DNA from: Lysobacter antibioticus HS124
GTDB lineage: Bacteria; Pseudomonadota; Gammaproteobacteria; Xanthomonadales; Xanthomonadaceae
NCBI RefSeq assembly: GCF_000336385.2
Contig: NZ_HG424471.1
Coordinates: 1 to 52,925 of the forward strand
Direction: 5' to 3'
Length of the DNA stretch: 52,925 nucleotides
Made by a program: the position numbers and the translations under genes. Of the stretch, positions 4,035 to 13,708 are shown piece by piece. The notes under the pieces were generated by a model that saw only the letters and a list, made by a program, of their open reading frames with translations, searched no databases and was not told the DNA's origin. Numbering within the stretch: the stretch's first letter is position 1; each line of letters opens with the position of its first letter.

Positions 4035-4781
4035 TCAGGGGTCGGCCGGGGCCACCGGGTCGCCGGCCCGGCCGGGGCAGCCCCAGTTGAGGATCGGCGT
4101 GCCCGGCGGCAGCACCCGGCGGAACATGTCCACCCGCCCGGCCTTGGGATTGACCACCACCGGCGCGCGCGCCGCTTTCAACAGCGGCAGGTCGGCGCTG
4201 CTGTCGGAGTAGGCGATCTCCACCGGCGCGTCGAAACCGACCTCGCGCAGCATGGTCATCTTCATGTCCGAATGGCAGTGGCGACGCGCGGCCAGCGCGC
4301 CCAGGCGTGGGCCGACCAGGGTGCCGACCACCGGCACGTCCTCGTGGGCGACGAAGGCCAGGATCGCCCGCGCCAGTTCCGGCGGCGCGCCGGTCGCGAC
4401 CACCACCCGGTCGCCCTGCACGCGGTGGCGATGCAGCACGTCCAGGGCGATCGGCAGCAGGCGGGCGCGGATCTGCGCGGTGTGCAGGGCCACGTAGCGG
4501 TCGATCATCGCGTCCAGGCCGCGCGCCCGGCTCAGGCCGACCGTGCCGATCCAGACGAAGGCGGAAATGCCGCGCCGGCGGGTCGGCAGCCAGGCCACCA
4601 TCGGCCCGGCCACCGGTGCGATCAGCAGCGCCAGCGCCATCCGCCACCACGAGCGCTTGATCAGCCAGGCGAACAGATGACTGCCGGAATCGCCGTCGTA
4701 CAGCGTGTGATCGAAATCGAACACCACCAGCGGCGCGCCCTCGCGCACCGGCGGGAAGTGCGCGGGCCGGACCGCGCTCAC
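4035..4781 (-). CDS. HAD-IB family phosphatase
   Basis: Haloacid-dehalogenase hydrolase of 248 residues using an aspartyl-phosphate intermediate. Motif I is FDFDHTLYD (nucleophile and acid/base aspartates), motif II the VATGAPPE threonine, motif III the conserved lysine region, and motif [14 protein letters not shown] hydrophobic stretch after motif I ([21 protein letters not shown]) suggests membrane association, as in phosphatidylglycerophosphatase C (PgpC/YfhB), which has the same layout; this is a likeness, not proof of substrate. The GTG start at 4781 overlaps the trpC stop (GTGA), so it is the last, translationally coupled gene of the trpGDC operon. It has no obvious role in tryptophan synthesis. 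Confidence 0.88.
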
Positions 4782-5572
4782 GCCGCGAACAGCCGCTGCA
4801 GCGCCGCGCCCGGGTCGCGTTCGCGCATGAAGCTTTCGCCGACCAGGAAGGTCTCGATGCCGGCCGCGCGCATGCGCGCGACGTCGGCCGGGGTGGCGAT
4901 GCCGCTTTCGGTGACCAGGGTGCGGTCCGGCGGCACCGCGCTGCGCAGTTCCAGGCTGGTGTCGAGCGAGACCTGGAAGGTGCGCAGGTTGCGGTTGTTG
5001 ACCCCAATCAGCTCGCAGTCGGTCTGCAGCGCGCGTTCGAGCTCGTCGATGTCGTGCACTTCCACCAGCACGTCCATGCCCAGCTCCATCGCCAGGCCGG
5101 CCATCTCGATCATCGGCCCGTCTTCGAGCGCGGCGACGATCAGCAGGATCGCGTCGGCGCCGATCAGGCGCGCCTCGTAGATCTGGTACGGATCGACGGT
5201 GAAATCCTTGCGCAGCACCGGCAGCGCGCAGGCCTCGCGGGCTTCGCCGAGATAGGCGTTGCTGCCCTGGAAGAAATCGACGTCGGTCAGCACCGACAGG
5301 CAGGCCGCGCCGCCGGCTTCGTAGCTGCGCGCGATCTCGGCCGGCTTGAAGTCGGGCCGGATCAGGCCCTTGGACGGGCTGGCCTTCTTGACCTCGGCGA
5401 TCACCGCCGCCTCGCCGGCGGCGTGCTTGCGCTTGATCGCATCGACGAAACCGCGCGTCGGCAGCTGCATCGCCTGCGCACGCGCGCGCACGTCGACCAG
5501 CGGACGCACCCGGCTGCGCTGTTCGATCTCTTCGCGCTTGCGCGCCAGGATGGTGTTGAGGATGTCGCTCAT
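4778..5572 (-). CDS. trpC: Indole-3-glycerol phosphate synthase
   Basis: Closes the ring of CdRP to give indole-3-glycerol phosphate in tryptophan synthesis. The 264-residue (beta/alpha)8 barrel shows the family blocks [11 protein letters not shown] (catalytic lysine and phosphate-binding serine), VLRKDF, VEVH, GVNNRNL and ESGI, and it lacks a fused TrpF domain. The start [12 protein letters not shown] at 5572 is chosen over upstream in-frame starts by homology. The ATG overlaps the stop of the upstream ABM gene (ATGA), and its own stop overlaps the HAD start, so translation is coupled on both sides. Confidence 0.97.
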
Positions 5573-5910
5573 GCCCTGCTCTTGCTCCCATACGCGCGTT
5601 CGACCTTGGCCACGCGCAGTTCGAAATGGTCGTACCAATGTTCGCGCCCGTAGGCGCGGGTGGCGGCGTGCTCGGCCTGGCGCTTCCAGGCCGCGATGGC
5701 CGCCTCGTCGGCCCAATAGCTTACGGTGATGCCGAAGCCGTCGTCGCCGCGGACCGATTCGACGCCGAGGAAACCCGGCTGCTGCGCGGCCAGCTCGACC
5801 ATGCGCTGCGCGGCCTGGCCGTAGCCGGGGTCGTCCTCGCCGTTGCGCTGCGAGCTGAAGATCACCGCGTAGTACGGCGGGCTGGGCAGTCGGGCGAAGC
5901 GGGCGGTCAT
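5569..5910 (-). CDS. Antibiotic biosynthesis monooxygenase (ABM) domain protein
   Basis: A 113-residue single-domain protein of the dimeric alpha/beta-barrel ABM superfamily: [10 protein letters not shown] at the N-terminus, a central helix with [15 protein letters not shown], and [21 protein letters not shown] before the last helix. Family members include monooxygenases and heme-degrading enzymes, but many have no known role. GGGAG lies 6 nt before ATG 5910. It overlaps trpC by 4 bp within the trp operon, so it should be made whenever TrpC is. Function unknown; one possibility is protection against a reactive or mis-oxidised tryptophan intermediate. Confidence 0.85.
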
Positions 5911-6111: not shown

Positions 6112-7146
6112 TCACGCCCCCGCCAATTCCCGGGTCAGCGCGACGAATTCGTCCAGCTTGGCCCGCGCCGCGCCCGAAGCGATCGCCCGGCGCGCCAGGA
6201 CGATGCCTTCGGCGATGCTTTCGCTCTTGCCGGCCGCGTACAGCGCCGCGCCGGAGTTCAGCGCGACGATCTCGCGCGGCAGGCCGTCGCGGTTCTCCAG
6301 CGCCTGCAGCAACAGCACCTTGGATTCGTCCGCGTCGGCCACGCGCAAGTTGCGGCTGGCGGCCATGGCGATGCCGAAATCCTCCGGGTGCACTTCGTAC
6401 TCGCGCACCTGCCCGTCGCGCAACTCGCCGACCAGGGTGCCTGCGCCGAGCGAAAGCTCGTCCATGCCGTCGCGGCCCCACACCACCAGCGCGCGTTGCG
6501 CGCCCATCTCCTGCAGCACGCGCACCTGGATGCCGACCAGGTCGGGATGGAACACGCCCATCAGGATGCTCGGCGCGCCGGCCGGATTGGTCAGCGGGCC
6601 GAGGATGTTGAACAGCGTGCGCACGCCCATCTCGCGCCGCACCGGCGCCACCACCTTCATCGCCGGGTGGTGCACCGGCGCGAACATGAAGCCGATCCCG
6701 GCGCGCTCGATGCACTGCCCGACCTGCTCGGGCTGCAGCTCGATCGCCGCGCCCAGCGCCTCCAGCACATCGGCGCTGCCGGACTTGGACGAGACGCTGC
6801 GGTTGCCGTGCTTGGCGACCTTGGCTCCGGCCGCGGCGACCACGAACATGCTCGCGGTGGAAATATTGAAGGTGTGCGCGCCGTCGCCGCCGGTGCCGAC
6901 GATGTCGACCAAATGGCTGCGGTCGGCGACCTCGACCGGCCGGGCGAACTCGCGCAGCACCGTGGCCGCGCCGGCGATCTCGCCGACGGTCTCCTTCTTG
7001 ACCCGCAGGCCGGTCAGGATCGCCGCGGTCATGGTCGGCGAAACTTCGCCGCGCATGATCGTGCGCATCAGCTCGACCATTTCGTCGTGGAAGATTTCGC
7101 GGTGCTCGATGGTGCGTTGCAGGGCTTCTTGCGGATTCAAGGGCAT
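6112..7146 (-). CDS. trpD: Anthranilate phosphoribosyltransferase
   Basis: Transfers the phosphoribosyl group of PRPP to anthranilate, the second step after TrpE/TrpG. The 344-residue protein has the family length. The PRPP loop GTGGDG is at 84-89, followed by the TFNISTAS segment, the [21 protein letters not shown] block and [10 protein letters not shown], all hallmarks of TrpD. It is a stand-alone TrpD, not fused to TrpG. The ATG at 7146 has no strong Shine-Dalgarno; translation may depend on coupling through a tiny ORF that starts on the trpG stop. Confidence 0.97.
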
Positions 7147-7198: not shown

Positions 7199-7270
7199 TC
7201 AGCCTCGCCATCGTTCGCCGTCGCGTCCGTGGCGCAGGTCGCGTACCGAGTAGCGCGGGCGCGCCGTCAT
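7199..7270 (-). CDS. Possible 23-codon ORF between trpG and trpD
   Basis: ATG at 7270 overlaps the trpG stop (ATGA), the same junction used elsewhere in this operon. The predicted peptide is 23 residues, Arg-rich, with one Trp at residue 22. It could carry ribosomes across the trpG-trpD gap or be chance. No homology is recognised. Confidence 0.25.
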
Positions 7271-7848
7271 CGCTGCAGGAAATTGCGCAGCAGGGCATGG
7301 CCGTGCTCGGTCTTGATCGACTCGGGATGGAACTGCACGCCCTCGACCGGATGCTGGCGATGGCGCAGCCCCATGATCTCCTCGAAACCGCCGTCCTCGA
7401 ATTCGGTCCAGGCGGTGACCTCCAGACAATCCGGCAAGCTTTCGCGCTCGACCACCAGCGAGTGGTAGCGGGTCGCCTCGTAGCCGTCCGGCAGGCCGGC
7501 GAACACGCCGCGCCCCTCGTGCCGGATCGGCGAGGTCTTGCCGTGCATGATCCGCTTGGCCCGGATCACCTGGCCGCCGTAGGCCTGGCCCAGGCTCTGA
7601 TGGCCCAGGCACACGCCCAGGATCGGCGTGGTGGCGCCCAGTCGGCGGATCACGTCCAGCGACACCCCGGCCTGGTCCGGCGTGCACGGGCCGGGCGAAA
7701 TCACGATCCGCTCCGGCGCCAGGCGCTCGATCTCGTCCGCCGACAGCTCGTCGTTGCGGATCACCCGCACCTGCGCGCCCAGCGCCTGCAGGTACTGGAC
7801 CAGGTTGTAGGTAAAGCTGTCGTAGTTGTCGATCATCAGGACGGACAT
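7267..7848 (-). CDS. trpG: Anthranilate synthase component II (glutamine amidotransferase)
   Basis: Class I glutamine amidotransferase that supplies ammonia to TrpE for anthranilate synthesis. The 193-residue protein starts [16 protein letters not shown] at 7848; longer in-frame extensions are Arg/Pro-rich and not conserved. The oxyanion strand SPGPCTP is at 51-57, the nucleophile C80 lies in GVCLGHQ, and the dyad H174/E176 lies in HPES. It may also serve as PabA, since this class is often shared with folate synthesis. It is the first structural gene of the leader-trpG-trpD-ABM-trpC-HAD operon. Confidence 0.97.
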
Positions 7849-8064
7849 GACGCGCCTCGAATGCGGAGGATGCCGGGGTGCGGGCCGGCCAGGATGCCGG
7901 CGGCGGGTTGCGCCGGCTGCGACCCGGCGCACGCGGCGACCGCGGACGGGCGCACGCGCTCGCGCCGGCGCGCAGGCCGGTGGAGAGGGGAATTACGGGA
8001 AGCGGAGCGGGCTCCGGCCGGCGCGGAACCGGCGGGGCGGCGCGCGCGGGCGCGGCGGGGGAAT
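7849..8064 (-). promoter_or_regulatory. Leader region between the Trp leader ORF and trpG
   Basis: A 216-base, very GC-rich untranslated stretch. On the minus strand it can form several hairpins, for example CGGAG/CTCCG with loop CCCG (within about 7990-8015) and GCCGGC/GCCGGC (within about 7895-7920), but none is followed by a T run. It probably contains the regulated step of the trpGDC leader. Confidence 0.45.
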
Positions 8065-8208
8065 TCAGCGTCCGGCGGGACGGGGGTCGTAGGCGGGGTC
8101 ACGCAGCGAATCCTCGGAGGTCGGCGAAGCGGGGACGAAGGCGGCACGCCACCATCGCCAGCCCAGGCCGGCCCATGCGGATTTCTGCGGAATTGCGCGA
8201 ACGATCAT
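8065..8208 (-). CDS. trpL: Trp-rich leader peptide of the trpGDC operon
   Basis: A 47-codon ORF starting ATG at 8208, ending 217 bases before trpG. It has four Trp codons, at residues 12, 17, 19 and 20, three of them in the core GWRWW (8160-8149). Such Trp clustering is the hallmark of ribosome-mediated attenuation leaders. The core and the upstream block ACTGTAACCGCT (plus-strand reading) are shared with the leader before trpE. A small stem (GGTGG/CCGCC, loop CGTG) starts within the last Trp codons. I found no hairpin followed by a U tract between this ORF and trpG, so the downstream mechanism is open. Confidence 0.75.
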   Translation of the reverse strand: MIVRAIPQKSAWAGLGWRWWRAAFVPASPTSEDSLRDPAYDPRPAGR

Positions 8209-8214
8209 GGCCCT

Positions 8215-8226
8215 ACTGTAACCGCT
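8215..8226 (-). promoter_or_regulatory. Conserved 12-bp block before the trpG leader (TACAGT -10 candidate)
   Basis: AGCGGTTACAGT (minus-strand reading) is identical to 12710-12721 before the trpE leader, and in both cases TACAGT ends 6 nt before the leader ATG. Read as a -10 box, it would place the transcript start at the ATG itself. Confidence 0.5.
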
Positions 8227-8324
8227 GGGCTCGGGTCTGCGCGAGAGCCCGGCCCCTCCGCCCCCCTCCGCCCCCCGCCGGCCCGACCGTACGGCGCCGC
8301 CCGGGCCGGCCGCAGGCCGCGGCC

Positions 8325-9683
8325 TCAGTCCGCGTTCGCCAGGCTCACCCGCACCCGCAGCCCCGGCGCCTGATCCAGCAGCGCGATGCGGCCGCCGTGG
8401 CGGTGCGCGATCGCCCGCACCAGGCTCATGCCCAGGCCGGTACCGGGCGAGCCGCGGTGCGCCTCCAGGCGCTGGAAGCGGTCGAACACCCGCTCCCGGT
8501 CCGCGGCCGGAATGCCCGGGCCGCGGTCGCCGATCTCCAGCACGATTTCGTCGCGTTCGCGCCGCAGGGCGACCTCGACCTCGGTCGCCGGCGGCGCGTA
8601 CTTGACCGCGTTGTCGAGCAGGTTGACCAGCAACTGGAACAATTGGTCGGCGTCGCCGCGCACCCGCGCCTGCGCCGCCGCGGCGGCACGCAATGCGATG
8701 CCGCGCTCGGCGGCGATCGGCGTGTACAGCTCGACCGCGTCGGCGACCAACGCCGCCAGGTCCAACACCGGCTCGTCGTGCACCGGCGGCTGCGCTTCGA
8801 TCCGCGCCAGTCGCAATAGCGCACCGAAGGACTGCAGCAACTGGTCGGTCTCGGCGATGGCTGCGTCCAGGCGCGCGCCGGTCTCGCCCTGGGCGCGCGC
8901 GCGCAACTCCTCCAGGCGGTTGCGCAGCCGGGTCAGCGGCGTGCGCAGGTCGTGGGCGATGTGGTCGGTGGCGTGGCGCACGCCGCCCAGCAATTCCTCG
9001 ATCCGGTCGAGCATGGCGTTGAAGCGGCGCGCGAGCCGGTCGAAGGCGTCGTCGCTGCCGTCGGGGGTGGCGCGCAGGCCGAGTTCGCCGTGGCCGACCC
9101 GCGCCGCGGTGTCGTCGAGATGGCGCAGCCGGCGCGACACCCAGCGCGAGGTCAGCCAGCCGATCAAGGCGCCCAGACTCGCCGCGAACGCCAGCGCGAT
9201 CAGTGCCGTACGCAGCATCAGCGCCAGGAACCGGTCCTGGCTGCGGGTACGGGTGCCGGTCAGCAAGACGCTGCCGTCCGGCAGGCGCTGCAACTGCGCG
9301 ACCACGCGCCGCTCGCCGTCGCCGTCGCGCTCGGTGAATTCGATCCAGCGCGCGCCGCGGCGATGGTTGGGCAAGCGCGGGTAATCGCCGGCGATCATGC
9401 GGCCGTCGTTCGCGGTCAGGGCGTAGACCGCATCCGGGTCCTCGTCGCCGGCGATGCGTTCGCGCAATTCGCTCAGCAGCGCGGCGCGGCCGTCGTCGCG
9501 GTACAACTCGATCAGGCCGGCGGCGTCGACCCGCACCAGTTCGCGCGCGTCCTGGGTCAGCATCGCCGACACCGCGTAGTGCACGCCGACGCCGAGCAGG
9601 ACGAAGGCGAGCAGGAACGACACCGTCACCGCCAGCGCCAGCCGCGCGCTGGTCGAACGCGGCCACGGCCGCCAGCGGCTCAT
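8325..9683 (-). CDS. Two-component sensor histidine kinase
   Basis: A 452-residue membrane sensor. One transmembrane helix at about 16-40, a periplasmic sensor region (about 41-156), a second helix at about 157-177, a HAMP linker (about 178-230), a HisKA domain with phospho-acceptor H244 in IAHDLRTPL, and an HATPase_c domain with N box (LLVNLLDNAVKYAP), G1 (GDRGPGI) and G2 (GTGLGMSL). The ATG at 9683 overlaps the stop of the response regulator (ATGA), so both are made from one transcript in fixed ratio. The layout resembles metal- or envelope-stress sensors of the OmpR class, but the signal cannot be inferred. Confidence 0.92.
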   Translation of the reverse strand: MSRWRPWPRSTSARLALAVTVSFLLAFVLLGVGVHYAVSAMLTQDARELVRVDAAGLIELYRDDGRAALLSELRERIAGDEDPDAVYALTANDGRMIAGDYPRLPNHRRGARWIEFTERDGDGERRVVAQLQRLPDGSVLLTGTRTRSQDRFLALMLRTALIALAFAASLGALIGWLTSRWVSRRLRHLDDTAARVGHGELGLRATPDGSDDAFDRLARRFNAMLDRIEELLGGVRHATDHIAHDLRTPLTRLRNRLEELRARAQGETGARLDAAIAETDQLLQSFGALLRLARIEAQPPVHDEPVLDLAALVADAVELYTPIAAERGIALRAAAAAQARVRGDADQLFQLLVNLLDNAVKYAPPATEVEVALRRERDEIVLEIGDRGPGIPAADRERVFDRFQRLEAHRGSPGTGLGMSLVRAIAHRHGGRIALLDQAPGLRVRVSLANAD

Positions 9684-10354
9684 GCGCCGAGCCGGTAGCC
9701 GGCGCCGCGCACGGTGTGCAGCAGCGGGCGCGGGAAGCCCTGGTCGATCTTCTGCCGCAGGCGGCTGATGTGCACGTCGATGACGTTGGTCTGCGGATCG
9801 AAGTGGTAGTCCCACACGGCTTCCAGCAGCATGGTCCGGGTCACCACGCGTTCGGCCTGGCGCATCAGGTATTCGAGCAGGCGGAACTCGCGCGGTTGCA
9901 GCTCGATGCGCTTGTCGCCGCGGCGCGCTTCGCGGCTGAGCAGGTCCAGTTCCAGGTCGGCCACCCGCAACCGGGTCGGCTCGCTGCCGCCGGCCTGGCC
10001 GCGGCGGGCGATGCTGTCCAGCCGCGCCGACAGCTCGGCGTAGGCGAAGGGCTTGACCAGGTAATCGTCGGCGCCGGCGCGCAGGCCTTCGACGCGGTGA
10101 TCGATTTCGCCGAGCGCGGTCAGCAGCAACACCGGCACCCGGTTGCCGGCGCCGCGCAGGGTCTGCAGCACGGTCATGCCGTCCAGCCCGGGCAGCATGC
10201 GGTCGAGCACGATCGCGTCGAAGGGTTCGGTGGTGGCCAGGAACAGGCCGTCCTTGCCGTTGTCGGCGTGGTCGACCGCATGGCCGTCCTCGCGCAAGCC
10301 CTTGGCGATGAAACCGGCGGTATGGGGGTCGTCTTCGACGATCAGGACGCGCAT
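9680..10354 (-). CDS. OmpR/PhoB-family response regulator
   Basis: A 224-residue regulator with a receiver domain (about 1-115; acidic pair ED8/D9, phospho-acceptor D51 in IVLDRML, conserved LTAL threonine and KPFAYAEL lysine) and a winged-helix DNA-binding domain (about 125-224, ending IDVHISRLRQKID and VRGAGYRLGA). The start MRVLIVEDDP at 10354 fits the family; a 10-residue extension upstream does not. It is the first gene of a two-gene operon with the downstream kinase, overlapping it by 4 bp. Confidence 0.94.
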   Translation of the reverse strand: MRVLIVEDDPHTAGFIAKGLREDGHAVDHADNGKDGLFLATTEPFDAIVLDRMLPGLDGMTVLQTLRGAGNRVPVLLLTALGEIDHRVEGLRAGADDYLVKPFAYAELSARLDSIARRGQAGGSEPTRLRVADLELDLLSREARRGDKRIELQPREFRLLEYLMRQAERVVTRTMLLEAVWDYHFDPQTNVIDVHISRLRQKIDQGFPRPLLHTVRGAGYRLGA

Positions 10355-10446
10355 GCCGACTCCGGACTCGCGACGGCGCAACAAGGACGGCGACAGGATA
10401 CGCCGCCCGTCGAGGCCGCGAGGTAAATCAGCCGCGACGCAAAGGC

Positions 10447-10477
10447 GATGCCCCGCCGGCTCGGCCGGCGGGGCATC
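10447..10477 (-). terminator. 14-bp perfect GC hairpin
   Basis: GATGCCCCGCCGGC pairs perfectly with GCCGGCGGGGCATC around a 3-base loop. On the minus strand it follows the Asr-like gene by about 130 bases and precedes the response regulator. The following GCCTTTGCG gives only a weak U tract. Confidence 0.6.
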
Positions 10478-10606
10478 GGGCCCACGCCGACGATGCGTGG
10501 GGCTCGGGGGCTCAGGGCGAGCGGGCCGGCCGGCGACCGACGCAGTGGGGTCGTGCGGTGCGCAGCGGACGGAGACGATCCGCGCCGGGCGGCGGCCGGC
10601 GCGGGC

Positions 10607-10789
10607 TCACTTCGACGCCGGCGCCGTGGCGGCGGCCGCGGGCTTGGCCGCCTTCTTGGCCTTGTGGTGGGCGTGCTTGACCGTCTTCGCGGCCGGCGCG
10701 GCGCCGGCGGCCGTGGTCGGCGCGGCAGCGAAAGCGGAACCGGCGAACGCGGTCAGGGCGACGGCGATCAGGGCGTTGCGGACGTTCAT
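10607..10789 (-). CDS. Small exported Ala/Lys/His-rich protein (Asr-like)
   Basis: A 60-residue protein with a clear signal peptide (MNVRNALIAVALTAFAGSAFA, cleavage after AFA) and a mature part almost wholly of Ala, Lys, His, Pro and Thr (KHAHHKAKKAAK). AAGGAG lies 6 nt before ATG 10789, strong evidence that it is translated. The composition resembles acid-shock protein Asr of enterobacteria, a basic periplasmic protein, but low-complexity sequence makes homology uncertain. It could buffer or bind envelope polyanions. Confidence 0.7.
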   Translation of the reverse strand: MNVRNALIAVALTAFAGSAFAAAPTTAAGAAPAAKTVKHAHHKAKKAAKPAAAATAPASK

Positions 10790-10942
10790 GGGAAGCTCCT
10801 TGCAGTTCGGGGTTGGGAGTCTGGGCCGGTGGGGCGTGTCCCCATCGCCGGCTCAGATTGCGCCCTCGCCCCTGCCGCGCAGCTTTCCTGCGCATGAACT
10901 TTTTTTAATCCGCCGCCGCAAGCCGCGCTGTGCGTCTTTTTT

Positions 10943-11109
10943 GTGGGAACGACGTGAGCCGCGACCGTCGAAGCGATGTACGCGAGCGCGGCGACCAGAG
11001 CCGCCCGCCTCGCATGTGCGGCCCACACGACAGCCGGGCCGCATCGCTTCGACCGATGCGGTGGTATTCGTCCCTGCGGTTGTGGCGGCTCACGCCGCTC
11101 CTACAAGGG
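10943..11109. repeat. Inverted pair of GTAG-type REP sequences (element A)
   Basis: This fills most of the 332-base gap between the Asr-like gene and trpE. The left end reads GTGGGAACGACGTGAGCCGCG and the right end is its inverted relative, CGGCTCACGCCGCTCCTAC, with CGAAGCGATG near the left end and CATCGCTTCG inward of the right end as a second inverted pair. It has the form of a two-REP palindromic unit. No coding capacity is seen. Confidence 0.7.
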
Positions 11110-11121
11110 CTTGCGCGACAC

Positions 11122-12597
11122 TTACAAACCGCGCGCCGCCTCGGCCACGGCACGGAACAGCGCGCGGCCCTTGTTCATCGTCTCCTCCCACTCCTTCTGC
11201 GGGTCGGAGTCGTAGACGATGCCGGCGCCGGCCTGCACGTGCAGGCGGCCGTCCTGGATCACCGCGGTGCGGATCGCGATCGCGGTGTCGGCGTCGCCGT
11301 GCCAGCCGATGTAGCCGACCGCGCCGGAATAGACGTTGCGCTTGACCGGCTCGAGCTCGCGGATCACTTCCAGGGCGCGGATCTTCGGCGCGCCGCTGAC
11401 CGTGCCGGCCGGGAAGGTCGCGCGCAGCACGTCGGCGTAGCTCAGCCCCGGCTGCAGGCGGCCGGTGACTTCGCTGACGATGTGCATGACGTGGCTGTAG
11501 CGCTCGATCACGAACTGTTCGCCGACTTCGACCGTGCCGGCTTCGGACACCCGGCCGACATCGTTGCGGCCGAGGTCGATCAGCATCAGGTGCTCGGCGC
11601 GCTCCTTGGGGTCGGCCAGCAGTTCGGCTTCCAGCGCGTGATCTTCCTCGACCGTCTTGCCGCGCGGGCGGGTGCCGGCGATCGGGCGCACGGTGACTTC
11701 GCCGTCCTGCAGGCGCACCAGGATCTCCGGCGACGAACCGACCACCTGGGTGCCGCCGACGTCGAGGAAATACATGTACGGCGACGGATTCAGCGCGCGC
11801 AGGGCGCGATAGACGTCGACCGGGCGCGCCTTGAACGGCACGCTCAGGCGCTGCGACAGCACCACCTGGAAGATGTCGCCGGCGCGGATCAGTTCCTTGG
11901 ACTTCTCCACCGCCTCGATGAAGCCTTCGCGGGTGAAGCCGGAAACGAAGTCGCCCTCGTCCAGGCCGGCCGGATCGAGCGTCTCGGGGTAGCTGGCGCC
12001 GCCGATGCGCAAGCGGTGCACGAGCTGGTCGAGGCGGCGGTTGGCGCGGGCGAAGGCCTGCGGCTCGCGCGGATCGGCGTGCACGATCAGGTACAGCCGG
12101 CCCTTGAGGTTGTCGAATACCGCGATTTCCTCGCTCTGCATCAGCAGGATGTCGGGCGTGCCGAGCTCGTCGGGCTTCTCGCCACCGGCCAGGCGGCGCT
12201 CGATGTACTGCACGCACTCGAAGCCGAACCAGCCGACCAGGCCGCCGGTGAAGCCCGGCAGGCCGTCGATCTTCGGCACCCGGTACTCGGTGCGCAGGCG
12301 TTCGACTTCGGCGAAGGGGTCCTCGACCACGCGGCTGTCGACCAATTCGCCGTGCTCGGTGACGAACAGGGTATGCCCGGCGAAGGCGTACACACGCTGC
12401 GCCGGCAGGCCGATGATCGAGTAGCGGCCGAAGCGTTCGCCGCCTTCGACCGATTCGAACAGGTAGGTATGCGGGCCGTCGGCGAGCTTGAGGTAGACCG
12501 ACAGCGGCGTATCGAGGTCGGACAGCACCTCGCGCACGACCGGGATGCGGGTGTAGCCGTTAGCGGCTTGCTGCTGGAAGAGTTCGTGCGAGATCAC
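11122..12597 (-). CDS. trpE: Anthranilate synthase component I
   Basis: Converts chorismate and ammonia (from TrpG) to anthranilate, the first committed step to tryptophan. The 491-residue protein has the chorismate-binding fold: [50 protein letters not shown] and [11 protein letters not shown]. The N-terminal TYLFES segment (44-49) matches the LLES-type feedback site for L-tryptophan. The start is GTG at 12597 with AAGGA about 8 nt upstream. trpE stands apart from trpGDC, 3.3 kb away. A Trp-rich leader ORF begins 106 nt upstream and runs over the trpE start in another frame. Confidence 0.97.
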
Positions 12598-12703
12598 GCG
12601 GCGGTTCCTTCATGGGCGAGTGGGCAGGAGCGACGATGGCCGACGGCCACCATCGCCAACCCACGTCGGCGCAGAAGGAGTGCGGGTTCGCCCAGGCGTT
12701 CAT
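12560..12703 (-). CDS. trpL: Trp-rich leader peptide overlapping the trpE start
   Basis: A 47-codon ORF starting ATG at 12703. Trp codons are at residues 4, 16, 18 and 19, giving the core GWRWW (12661-12647), as in the trpG leader. Its stop (12560-12562) lies 38 bases inside trpE, in a different frame. Ribosomes that finish the leader must therefore cross the trpE Shine-Dalgarno and start, while ribosomes stalled at the Trp codons would stop about 50 nt short of it. No U-tract terminator is present, which favours control of translation over classical transcription attenuation. Confidence 0.7.
12630..12656 (-). promoter_or_regulatory. 12-bp hairpin over the Trp codons of the trpE leader
   Basis: GCGATGGTGGCC pairs with GGCCATCGTCGC around a GTC loop (12 pairs, two of them G-U). 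The left arm contains Trp codons 18 and 19, so a stalled ribosome would open it. Flanking TCCTTC (leader codons 9-10) is exactly complementary to GAAGGA at the trpE Shine-Dalgarno and could close an outer stem. Confidence 0.5.
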
Positions 12704-12709
12704 GGCCAC

Positions 12710-12721
12710 ACTGTAACCGCT
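12710..12721 (-). promoter_or_regulatory. Conserved 12-bp block before the trpE leader (TACAGT -10 candidate)
   Basis: Identical to 8215-8226 and placed the same 6 nt before the leader ATG. The promoter would overlap the 3' end of the lipid kinase gene (stop at 12743). No TTGACA-like -35 is evident. Confidence 0.5.
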
Positions 12722-12742
12722 TCGCGCACGCCGCGCGACGGG

Positions 12743-13708
12743 TCAGCCGGCGAGCGCGCCGGGCAGCGTCGCGGGCCCGGCGGCGGCCAGCAAAGGGCAG
12801 TCGGCCGGCAGGTGCATGCGCACCCGTCCGGGCACGCAGTCGACGCGGAAATGCCGCGCCTGCACCGGCTCGCCGTCGAGATTGAGGGTCAGCGGCGCAG
12901 CGGCGTCGATCTCGACCCGGCGCAGGCGCGCGCGGGTCGCGATCCGGTCCAGGGCGGCGTGCTTGCCTTCGGTCAGCAAAGTGCGCACCGTCGCGCCGAC
13001 TTCGCCGGACAGCGCCGGCACGATGGTCAGGTCGAGCAAGCCGTCGTCGATCATCGCGTCCGGGCACAGCGCCTGGCCGCCGCCGGCCTGACGGCCGTTG
13101 CCCAGGCCCAGGGCGATGAAGTCGCCCTCCCAATCGAAACCGTCGCCGTGCAGGCGCGCGCGCAGCGGTTCGATCCGGCCCAGCTTGGCGATGCCGGTCA
13201 CCAGGTAGGCCAGGCCGCCGAGCATCTTCTTCAGGCCCTCGTCGGTCTCCAAGGTGACCTGGGTGCCGAAGCCGCCGCTGGCCAGATTCGCCGCCCAATG
13301 CACGCCGTCCGGCGCCTGCAGACGGATCAGGTCGATCGCCTGCGCGGGCCGGCGCCGGATCAGTCGCAAGGCCTCGTGCGGCGCATCGGGAATGCCGGCC
13401 GCGCCGGCGAAATCGTTGGCCGTGCCCAGCGGCACCAGGCCCAGGCTGGGCAACTGCGTGGCGGTTTCGTCGCGATGCGCCAGCGTGGTGGCGACCTCGC
13501 TGAGGGTGCCGTCGCCGCCGGCTGCGACGATGCTGTCGACGCCGTCGGCGATAGCCTCGGCGACATAGCGTTCGGCGTCGCCGCCTTCCCAGGTGACCCG
13601 CACGTCCAGCGCCACGCCGTCTTCGCGCAAAGCCGCCACCGCCTCGCGCAGCGAGTCGTCGCCGGCGGACTTGCCGTTGAGGATCAGGCGCCAACGCAGT
13701 GCGGACAT
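12743..13708 (-). CDS. Diacylglycerol/lipid kinase family protein (YegS-like)
   Basis: A 321-residue member of the DAGK catalytic family, which phosphorylates lipids or sphingosine-like substrates with ATP. GGDGT at 64-68 is the nucleotide-binding signature; [11 protein letters not shown] (about 91-101) and the [11 protein letters not shown] / [11 protein letters not shown] blocks are typical of YegS/DgkB-type enzymes. Length and domain order are normal. It starts at 13708, divergent from the plus-strand candidate RNA, and ends 40 bases before the trpE leader, so it may read into trpE. Confidence 0.9.

Follow-up and report, generated by a model that had tools for sequence, protein, structure and literature searches.

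Two related tryptophan-codon leaders at trpE and trpG of Lysobacter antibioticus: a conserved, duplicated and putative Trp sensor, probably acting by translational attenuation, with a proposed relay frame at trpG

Textbooks present attenuation of the trp genes as the standard example of transcriptional control. In the enterobacterial trp attenuator, tandem Trp codons in a leader before trpE sense charged tRNA-Trp, and Escherichia coli needs a terminator for this control. Translational attenuation is known from the drug-responsive erm and cat leaders, which do not overlap the gene they control. In Sinorhizobium meliloti, a leaderless trpL of 14 codons with consecutive Trp codons precedes trpE(G) and is described as acting by transcription attenuation with a terminator (PMC7298713). 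Actinobacterial trp, ilv and cys leader peptides with regulatory codons have also been described, some of them without obvious terminators (Seliverstov et al. 2005, PMC1262725). For the polycysteine leaderless short open reading frames (ORFs) of mycobacteria, the speed of elongation is described as setting downstream translation (Canestrari et al. 2020, doi 10.1111/mmi.14498, as described in PMC9031893 and PMC13236596), and the general principle that a stalled leader ribosome unmasks the Shine-Dalgarno (SD) sequence of the next gene is set out in PMC13236596. Here, we describe two related Trp-rich leader ORFs at trpE and trpG of Lysobacter antibioticus HS124. They lie in a window of 52,925 nucleotides (nt), which is the whole stretch of DNA that was analyzed (contig NZ_HG424471.1 of assembly GCF_000336385.2, positions 1 to 52,925). 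We regard them as conserved and duplicated leaders with the sequence features of a Trp sensor. They are probably translational attenuators, and the second would reach trpG through an intervening relay frame (ORF2).

Compared by description, the cysteine-responsive leaderless ORF of mycobacteria appears to be the nearest described mechanism. Both systems would use a leaderless sensor ORF with a run of end-product codons, whereas the amino acid, the genes and the phylum differ, and the duplicated module and the relay frame belong to the present locus. The S. meliloti trpL resembles the trpE leader as a leaderless Trp leader before trpE, but it is short and, according to the description in PMC7298713, under terminator-based control. 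In contrast to the enterobacterial attenuator (Rfam Trp_leader), the present locus has no terminator that we could find, its leader overlaps trpE, the SD is sequestered in the predicted fold, and no Rfam match was obtained. It would share with the erm and cat leaders the unmasking of an SD by a stalled leader ribosome, but the signal here would be an amino acid and the leader overlaps the gene. An overlap with trpE and a relay frame are unmentioned in the abstract of PMC1262725. No paper on a trpE or trpG leader in the family of L. antibioticus (Xanthomonadaceae) was recognised in our literature search, whose coverage was partial, with most subscription journals outside it, so that absence from print is not established.

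Both leaders consist of 47 codons, four of them Trp codons, with three in a GWRWW core encoded by GG(C/T)TGGCGATGGTGGC; the trpG leader translates to MIVRAIPQKSAWAGLGWRWWRAAFVPASPTSEDSLRDPAYDPRPAGR*. An identical AGCGGTTACAGT precedes both and ends 6 nt ahead of each ATG. These statements of the preliminary description are exact in the sequence, and the names it gave to trpE, trpG, trpD and trpC were borne out by NCBIfam-type matches above cutoff (Table 1). Exact matches to TGGCGATGGTGG occur ten times in the 5.14-Mb genome, and only two of them, those of the two trp leaders, are preceded by an open frame with its start codon and a TAnAGT box, which rules out the core as a chance match.

Both leaders are part of a homologous module of TACAGT, a leader with the Trp-Arg-Trp-Trp core, a long hairpin, an SD and a GTG start. 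From the leader ATG through the downstream start, the module measures 109 nt at trpE and trpG alike, and each leader overlaps the downstream GTG by 38 nt. A covariance model built from trpE leaders only found the trpG leader of the window at full length (E = 6e-12), the next match (E 0.009) being the opposite strand of the trpE hairpin. When the whole genome was searched with E up to 0.05, the model matched the two trp leaders only and thus gave no further copy of the module in this genome.

For the distribution in relatives, 60 family genomes from 53 genera were searched for TrpE. It was present in 55, and 54 of these regions were compared together with the window. Both leader ORFs are kept there with their Trp codons. 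A leader with a W-R-W core lies directly before trpE in 32 of the 55 genomes (the core is RRWR only in L047), while a trpG leader is present in all 20 genomes of the genus and in three further genera. Two of the 32 trpE leaders are degenerate, one by an early stop (L040) and one with a single core Trp left (L047). The trpE leaders range from 19 to 58 codons and vary in sequence outside the core; the fourth Trp codon is variable among relatives and the WRW(W/R) core is conserved. From the leader start to the core, the distance is a multiple of 3 nt in 32/32, and from the core to the trpE start it is 58-64 nt in 27/32. The leader starts were picked manually among in-frame candidates, before the -10-like boxes reported below were counted. 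A leader stop at the conserved place inside trpE was found in 30 of the 32 leader-bearing genomes and in none of the 23 leader-less ones, the two leaders without it being the degenerate ones. The T of this stop is the last base of an Ala or Thr codon of trpE, and the next codon supplies GA or AA; in most cases the two codons are GCT and GAx. In the TrpE tree, all 32 leader-bearing rows fall within one group of 40 rows (support 97), with at least six state changes.

The named relatives with TrpE belong to Lysobacter, Stenotrophomonas, Xanthomonas, Pseudoxanthomonas and Luteimonas, and the leader was found in Xanthomonas floridensis, Stenotrophomonas maltophilia, Pseudoxanthomonas mexicana and Luteimonas weifangensis, among others. 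A strict pattern detected it in 29 of 39 Lysobacterales-type loci (L212-L250), with the usual stop in 26 of these 29, and in 0 of 41 other loci; the pattern includes the -10-like box, so that box counts in this set hold by construction. Four of the ten Lysobacterales-type loci that fail the strict pattern have a TGA at the usual place of the leader stop. Over the 60 family genomes, the trpE-only covariance model gave 34 matches in 31 genomes. Three of the 32 trpE leaders (L057, L077, L078) went undetected, as did the copies at trpG in the genomes of L043 and L047. One leader was picked up in G007, a genome with no match for TrpE. A further match in G047 (33 nt, E 0.048) does not lie at trpE and is probably a chance hit. 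No such leader was found in 23 loci from other families of the order, taken from the 49 TrpE-bearing genomes outside the family. Some short Trp-rich ORFs occur in that set; two of them, in L164 (WPWRW) and L180 (WW), were dropped because they lie in apparent coding sequence of an upstream kinase. Natural variants without the overlap exist as well: in L040 (1402-1502), L212 and L218, the leader is cut after WRWRS or WRWWP and stops upstream of trpE.

The shared 12 bp are best read as the promoter -10 region of leaderless mRNAs and not as a part of the attenuator. A TAnAnT box ends 6-8 nt before the start of all 32 trpE leaders (TAnAGT in 30), an arrangement that 6 of 5145 background positions show. 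The box also stands at a spacing of 6-7 nt in 20/20 trpG leaders of the genus, but there the pattern used for locating the leaders already contained it. From this arrangement, the transcript is predicted to start at or beside the leader ATG.

The predicted RNA structure links the leader codons to the SD of trpE. Single-sequence folds typically show one long stem from the leader through the trpE SD. In this stem, the SD has a UCCUUC-like segment A as its partner, and above the A:SD helix the Trp codons are base-paired to a GCC(A/G)UCGUC-like segment. The unpaired probability of the trpE SD is below 0.5 in 29 of 32 folds (exceptions L041, L043 and L066). The anti-SD of a leader fits the trpE SD of its own genome better than those of other genomes (-13.06 vs -11.43 kcal/mol), a difference reached in 0 of 20000 permutations with kinship ignored. 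The modules were further compared with synonymous recodings, for which codon usage was taken from seven window genes and 17 distinct ones of the 20 trpG modules were used. At trpE, pairing between leader and SD was stronger than in the recodings in 31/32, and the unpaired probability of the SD was lower in 31/32 (mean 0.20 vs 0.47). RNAalifold recovered both trpE helices with 28 pairs from 19 modules of near-equal length, 12 of them from the genus of the window; covariation is present but modest. We regard the structure as well supported at trpE and as likely but less well supported at trpG.

At trpG, the module ends in the start of ORF2 instead of the start of the gene. Across the 20 genus genomes, the core lies 58 nt from this start and 61 nt from the start of trpE; the start codon is GTG, or TTG at trpG of L130. 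The trpG leader overlaps the ORF2 start by 38 nt in 15 genomes, by 56 nt in four and by 35 nt in one. Folds of the same type occur in the genus sequences, and in them anti-SD and SD shift together by sub-group (AAAUCC/GGAUUU, AAUUCC/GGAAU, UUCCCG/CGGGAA), with poor pairing in L133 and L134 (A:SD -6.0). The structure derived from one trpG sequence gives 85.1% standard pairs over 17 distinct rows, compared with 32-51% when it is slid, and its covariation score was matched by 1 of 500 shuffles. The SD of ORF2 is less often unpaired than in synonymous recodings in 16 of 17 modules. Within the family set, the trpG copy occurs in the window, L036, L043, L047 and L052, with at least three state changes on the TrpE tree, and in all five a distance of over 1 kb separates trpE from trpG. 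The trpG leader of L043 is short and stops before the ORF2 start.

What is conserved in ORF2 is its phase. In 19 of the 20 genus genomes, it is open for 82-136 codons and ends with a TGA at +10 of trpG within (C/T)TGATG, and it overlaps the trpG start in all 20. The ORF2s of the three further genera are 51-63 codons long and all end at +10 as well. The ORF2 span takes 16 distinct lengths in the 20 genomes, corresponding to at least 16 changes on the trpG tree, and is divisible by 3 in 19/20. If each change kept the phase with a chance of 1/3, at least 15 of 16 would do so with a probability below 1e-6. The pooled proportions of nonsynonymous and synonymous differences are close (pN 0.117 and pS 0.132, from eight close pairs sharing rows) and the G+C content is flat over the codon positions, so that there is no sign of selection at the protein level. 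In the window, ORF2 is C-rich, with a C/G ratio of 1.60 compared with 0.89-1.11 in six neighbouring genes.

The sequences show the ORFs and how they are related, which stops and phases are conserved, where leader and SD are complementary and what fold is predicted; the transcription start, ribosome stalling, opening of the SD, coupling and a part played by Rho are inferred. RNA polymerase would start at the leader AUG, as the -10-like box suggests, and produce a leaderless mRNA on which a ribosome would load at the 5' end and translate the Trp-Arg-Trp-Trp codons. With ample charged tRNA-Trp, this ribosome would run through, the leader would fold into the long hairpin and so hide the SD of the downstream frame. 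A ribosome still in the leader would also traverse the downstream start site, leaving little initiation. With scarce charged tRNA-Trp, it would stall on the Trp codons in the upper 5' arm of the hairpin, so that the stem would stay open, the SD would be free and the frame would be translated. The direction of the response, with more TrpE when Trp is scarce, is likewise deduced. At trpE, the freed SD would be that of the gene itself. At trpG, where the module appears to have been duplicated from the promoter to the trpE-like start, the freed start would be that of ORF2. Ribosomes on ORF2 would terminate at the TGATG over the trpG start and so raise the translation of trpG, perhaps also of trpD and trpC, above what trpG initiates by itself, while untranslated C-rich ORF2 RNA could be a target of Rho.

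The opening step was modelled by blocking a ribosome footprint on the Trp codons. The mean accessibility of the trpE SD rose from 0.18 to 0.40 with the block on the first Trp codon, and to 0.34 and 0.27 on the other two, while at the trpG modules it stayed at 0.18-0.19. If pairing across the ribosome was barred, the values were 0.49 at trpE and 0.34-0.35 at trpG, and with the block on the first Trp codon the gain exceeded 0.2 in 22 of 32 trpE and 9 of 17 trpG modules. The thermodynamic model allows the switch and does not prove that the Trp codons are its trigger; for that, we rely on the fact that the codons are conserved, on their phase and on the pathway concerned. For the more specific history, we lean towards a self-contained translational attenuator of about 120 bp (promoter, Trp sensor, SD and start) having been copied from trpE to trpG. 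The copied start would open a relay frame free of content, of which the phase alone is conserved, and translational coupling would carry the on/off decision over 240-410 nt, possibly also keeping Rho off the C-rich RNA. We hold the account as a whole to be likely; our confidence is higher for the anatomy and lower both for the structure at trpG and for the view that trpG is reached mainly through the relay.

However, a number of results speak against this account. For the promoter, no -35 consensus is visible at the leaders, and a sigma-70 scan returned 0 promoters in 7700-12900. For the distribution, eight leader-less rows also lie inside the 40-row TrpE group. For the structure at trpE, the arm formed by the Trp codons fits its partner no better within than between genomes (1358 of 20000 permutations), which may be expected, as one arm is nearly invariant. 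The energy of the whole module is barely below that of synonymous recodings (mean z -0.68 at trpE and -0.56 at trpG), and few trpE pairs in the RNAalifold structure are changed on both sides (3/28). In the stall model without the bar on cross-ribosome pairing, a gain above 0.2 at any of the three Trp positions was obtained in only 18 of 32 trpE and 3 of 17 trpG modules. When segment A, which lies upstream of the core, was blocked as a control, the trpE SD opened as well or better (mean 0.49). At trpG, pairs with double changes are unexceptional (6/38, equalled in 215 of 500 shuffles). RNAalifold returned no A:SD helix there and 1/25 double-change pairs, and pairing between leader and SD is no stronger than in recodings (mean z -0.43, with 7 of 17 on the wrong side). 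Finally, trpG has an SD-like site of its own before its start in the genus (GAGG in 15 of 20, GAGA in four, GAGT in one), and ORF2 contains GATAAT in 16 of 20 genomes (L118-L129 and L131-L134), with GGATAATC in six; it is missing in the window (L115), L116, L117 and L130. Among the 20, only ORF2 of L131 (G072) has lost the phase, and its end lies at +20 of trpG.

The GATAAT could be an internal -10 box, and hence a second promoter past the switch that would allow Trp-independent transcription of trpG. Given this and the SD-like site, the relay need not be the sole route to trpG. Both observations are also what would be seen if ORF2 were a by-product, a G+C-rich open frame that reaches trpG by accident while the gene uses its own SD and the internal promoter. 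Shuffled versions of ORF2 stay open with a probability of 0.11-0.59. The accident would, however, have to begin at a homologue of the trpE start, complete with its SD, and to stay in phase with trpG in 19 of 20 genomes although the length changed at least 16 times, and in all three other genera as well. The window and two near relatives, moreover, do without the GATAAT. We consider the by-product explanation unlikely.

A hairpin may also be dispensable if leader ribosomes that cross the trpE start block initiation by their transit, and a stall about 60 nt upstream clears the site. The passage of the leader beyond the start codon, its stop conserved in 30/32 and the core-to-start distance of 58-64 nt in 27/32 all agree with such interference. 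It leaves unexplained why the trpE leader and SD are complementary beyond both recodings and non-cognate pairs, and as the whole explanation we rate it as quite improbable. Transit interference may nevertheless combine with the hairpin, and it would suit the copy at trpG, for which the structure is less well supported.

The preliminary description had proposed duplicated attenuators that tie both loci to tRNA-Trp. Its view of the two leaders as related copies stands, and both are kept with their Trp codons in related genomes, but a classical attenuator is unlikely in view of a leader stop inside trpE and leader codons that pair with the trpE SD. In classical ribosome-mediated transcription attenuation, an intrinsic or Rho-dependent terminator and an antiterminator would alternate before the structural gene, and the tandem Trp codons in a short leader and the stacked hairpin would fit this. 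Since the leader stops 38 nt inside trpE, there is no room for a terminator before the gene, and it would fall into the coding region; the 3' arm of the trpE hairpin, furthermore, is the SD. Only one terminator-like site was found in 7700-12900 (10389-10407, with 1.6 expected by chance), far from both leaders, in agreement with the earlier remark that neither leader has a U-tract terminator. At Rfam gathering cutoffs, the leaders were unmatched in the window. Trp_leader was also unmatched at the trpE leader (12500-12800) at E up to 5, where just weak matches to a microRNA and archaeal snoRNA appeared. Rho-dependent attenuation would be conceivable at trpG, with 216 nt between the leader stop and the gene and a C-rich ORF2. 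Taken together, the stop within trpE and the pairing of the leader codons with its SD make transcription attenuation very unlikely and point to control of translation. An action of the leader and ORF2 peptides in trans is hardly credible, for although attenuator leader peptides such as peTrpL of S. meliloti can act in this way according to the description in PMC7298713, the trpE leader varies outside its core and in length, and ORF2 shows no sign of protein-level selection.

If the translational attenuator is real, a large family including Xanthomonas, Stenotrophomonas, Pseudoxanthomonas, Luteimonas and Lysobacter would appear to control trp at translation, by a leader that invades its gene. 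The copy at trpG hints at a way in which such a switch can be moved to another gene, namely with a relay frame that is held in strict phase and shows no sign of selection on its protein. It would also offer a testable case of frames that are maintained because they are translated and not because of what they encode; conservation filters would drop small ORFs of this class.

Table 1. Positions of the trp genes, the leader modules and ORF2 in the window
Feature	Position	Strand	Remark
AGCGGTTACAGT at trpE	12710..12721	(-)	-10-like TACAGT 12710-12715, 6 nt before leader ATG
trpE leader ORF	12560..12703	(-)	47 codons, core GWRWW, last 38 nt overlap trpE
Segment A at trpE (UCCUUC), anti-SD within leader codons	12674..12679	(-)	pairs with trpE SD in fold
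Segment B at trpE, Trp-Arg-Trp-Trp codons (TGGCGATGGTGG), leader nt 46-57	12647..12658	(-)	
Segment C at trpE (GGCCATCGTCGC), pairs with Trp codons	12630..12641	(-)	predicted fold
Segment D, trpE SD AAGGAA	12605..12610	(-)	
trpE, anthranilate synthase component I, GTG start 12597	11122..12597	(-)	TIGR00564 above cutoff
AGCGGTTACAGT at trpG	8215..8226	(-)	-10-like TACAGT 8215-8220, 6 nt before leader ATG
trpG leader ORF	8065..8208	(-)	47 codons, core GWRWW, last 38 nt overlap ORF2
Segment A of trpG module (AAAUCC)	8179..8184	(-)	pairs with GGAUU of ORF2 SD in fold
Segment B of trpG module (TGGCGATGGTGG)	8149..8160	(-)	
Segment C of trpG module	8134..8145	(-)	
SD of ORF2 (GAGGAT), homologous to trpE SD	8110..8115	(-)	
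ORF2, 88 codons, GTG 8102 homologous to trpE start	7836..8102	(-)	TGA within CTGATG at +10 of trpG
trpG, amidotransferase component II, own SD-like GAGG before ATG	7267..7848	(-)	TIGR00566 above cutoff
trpD	6112..7146	(-)	TIGR01245 above cutoff
trpC	4778..5716	(-)	NF001373 above cutoff

Between trpE and trpG, the window also carries a sensor kinase/response regulator pair (8325-10384), for which the best NCBIfam matches are of the CopS/CopR type and lie below the curated cutoffs. A small Ala/Lys-rich ORF (10609-10789) is located between trpE and the response regulator and has no Pfam match. The leaders and ORF2 were likewise without a Pfam match above cutoff, with a sub-threshold DUF6202 match at the trpE leader (E 0.018).

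Among the 23 leader-less loci of the family, 14 were seen by eye to have TGGCATACT close to trpE instead of a leader. Nine leader-less loci (L044, L045, L046, L051, L059, L080, L086, L088 and L089) have in common an element like TTGGAGGC-loop-GCCTCC in the 240 bases before trpE; CGTCC or a similar sequence comes after it, often together with TGACA. It gave no Rfam match in the five loci scanned and is possibly another control region of trpE or the end of an upstream gene. In six of the nine loci with this element, TGGCATACT is found near trpE as well.

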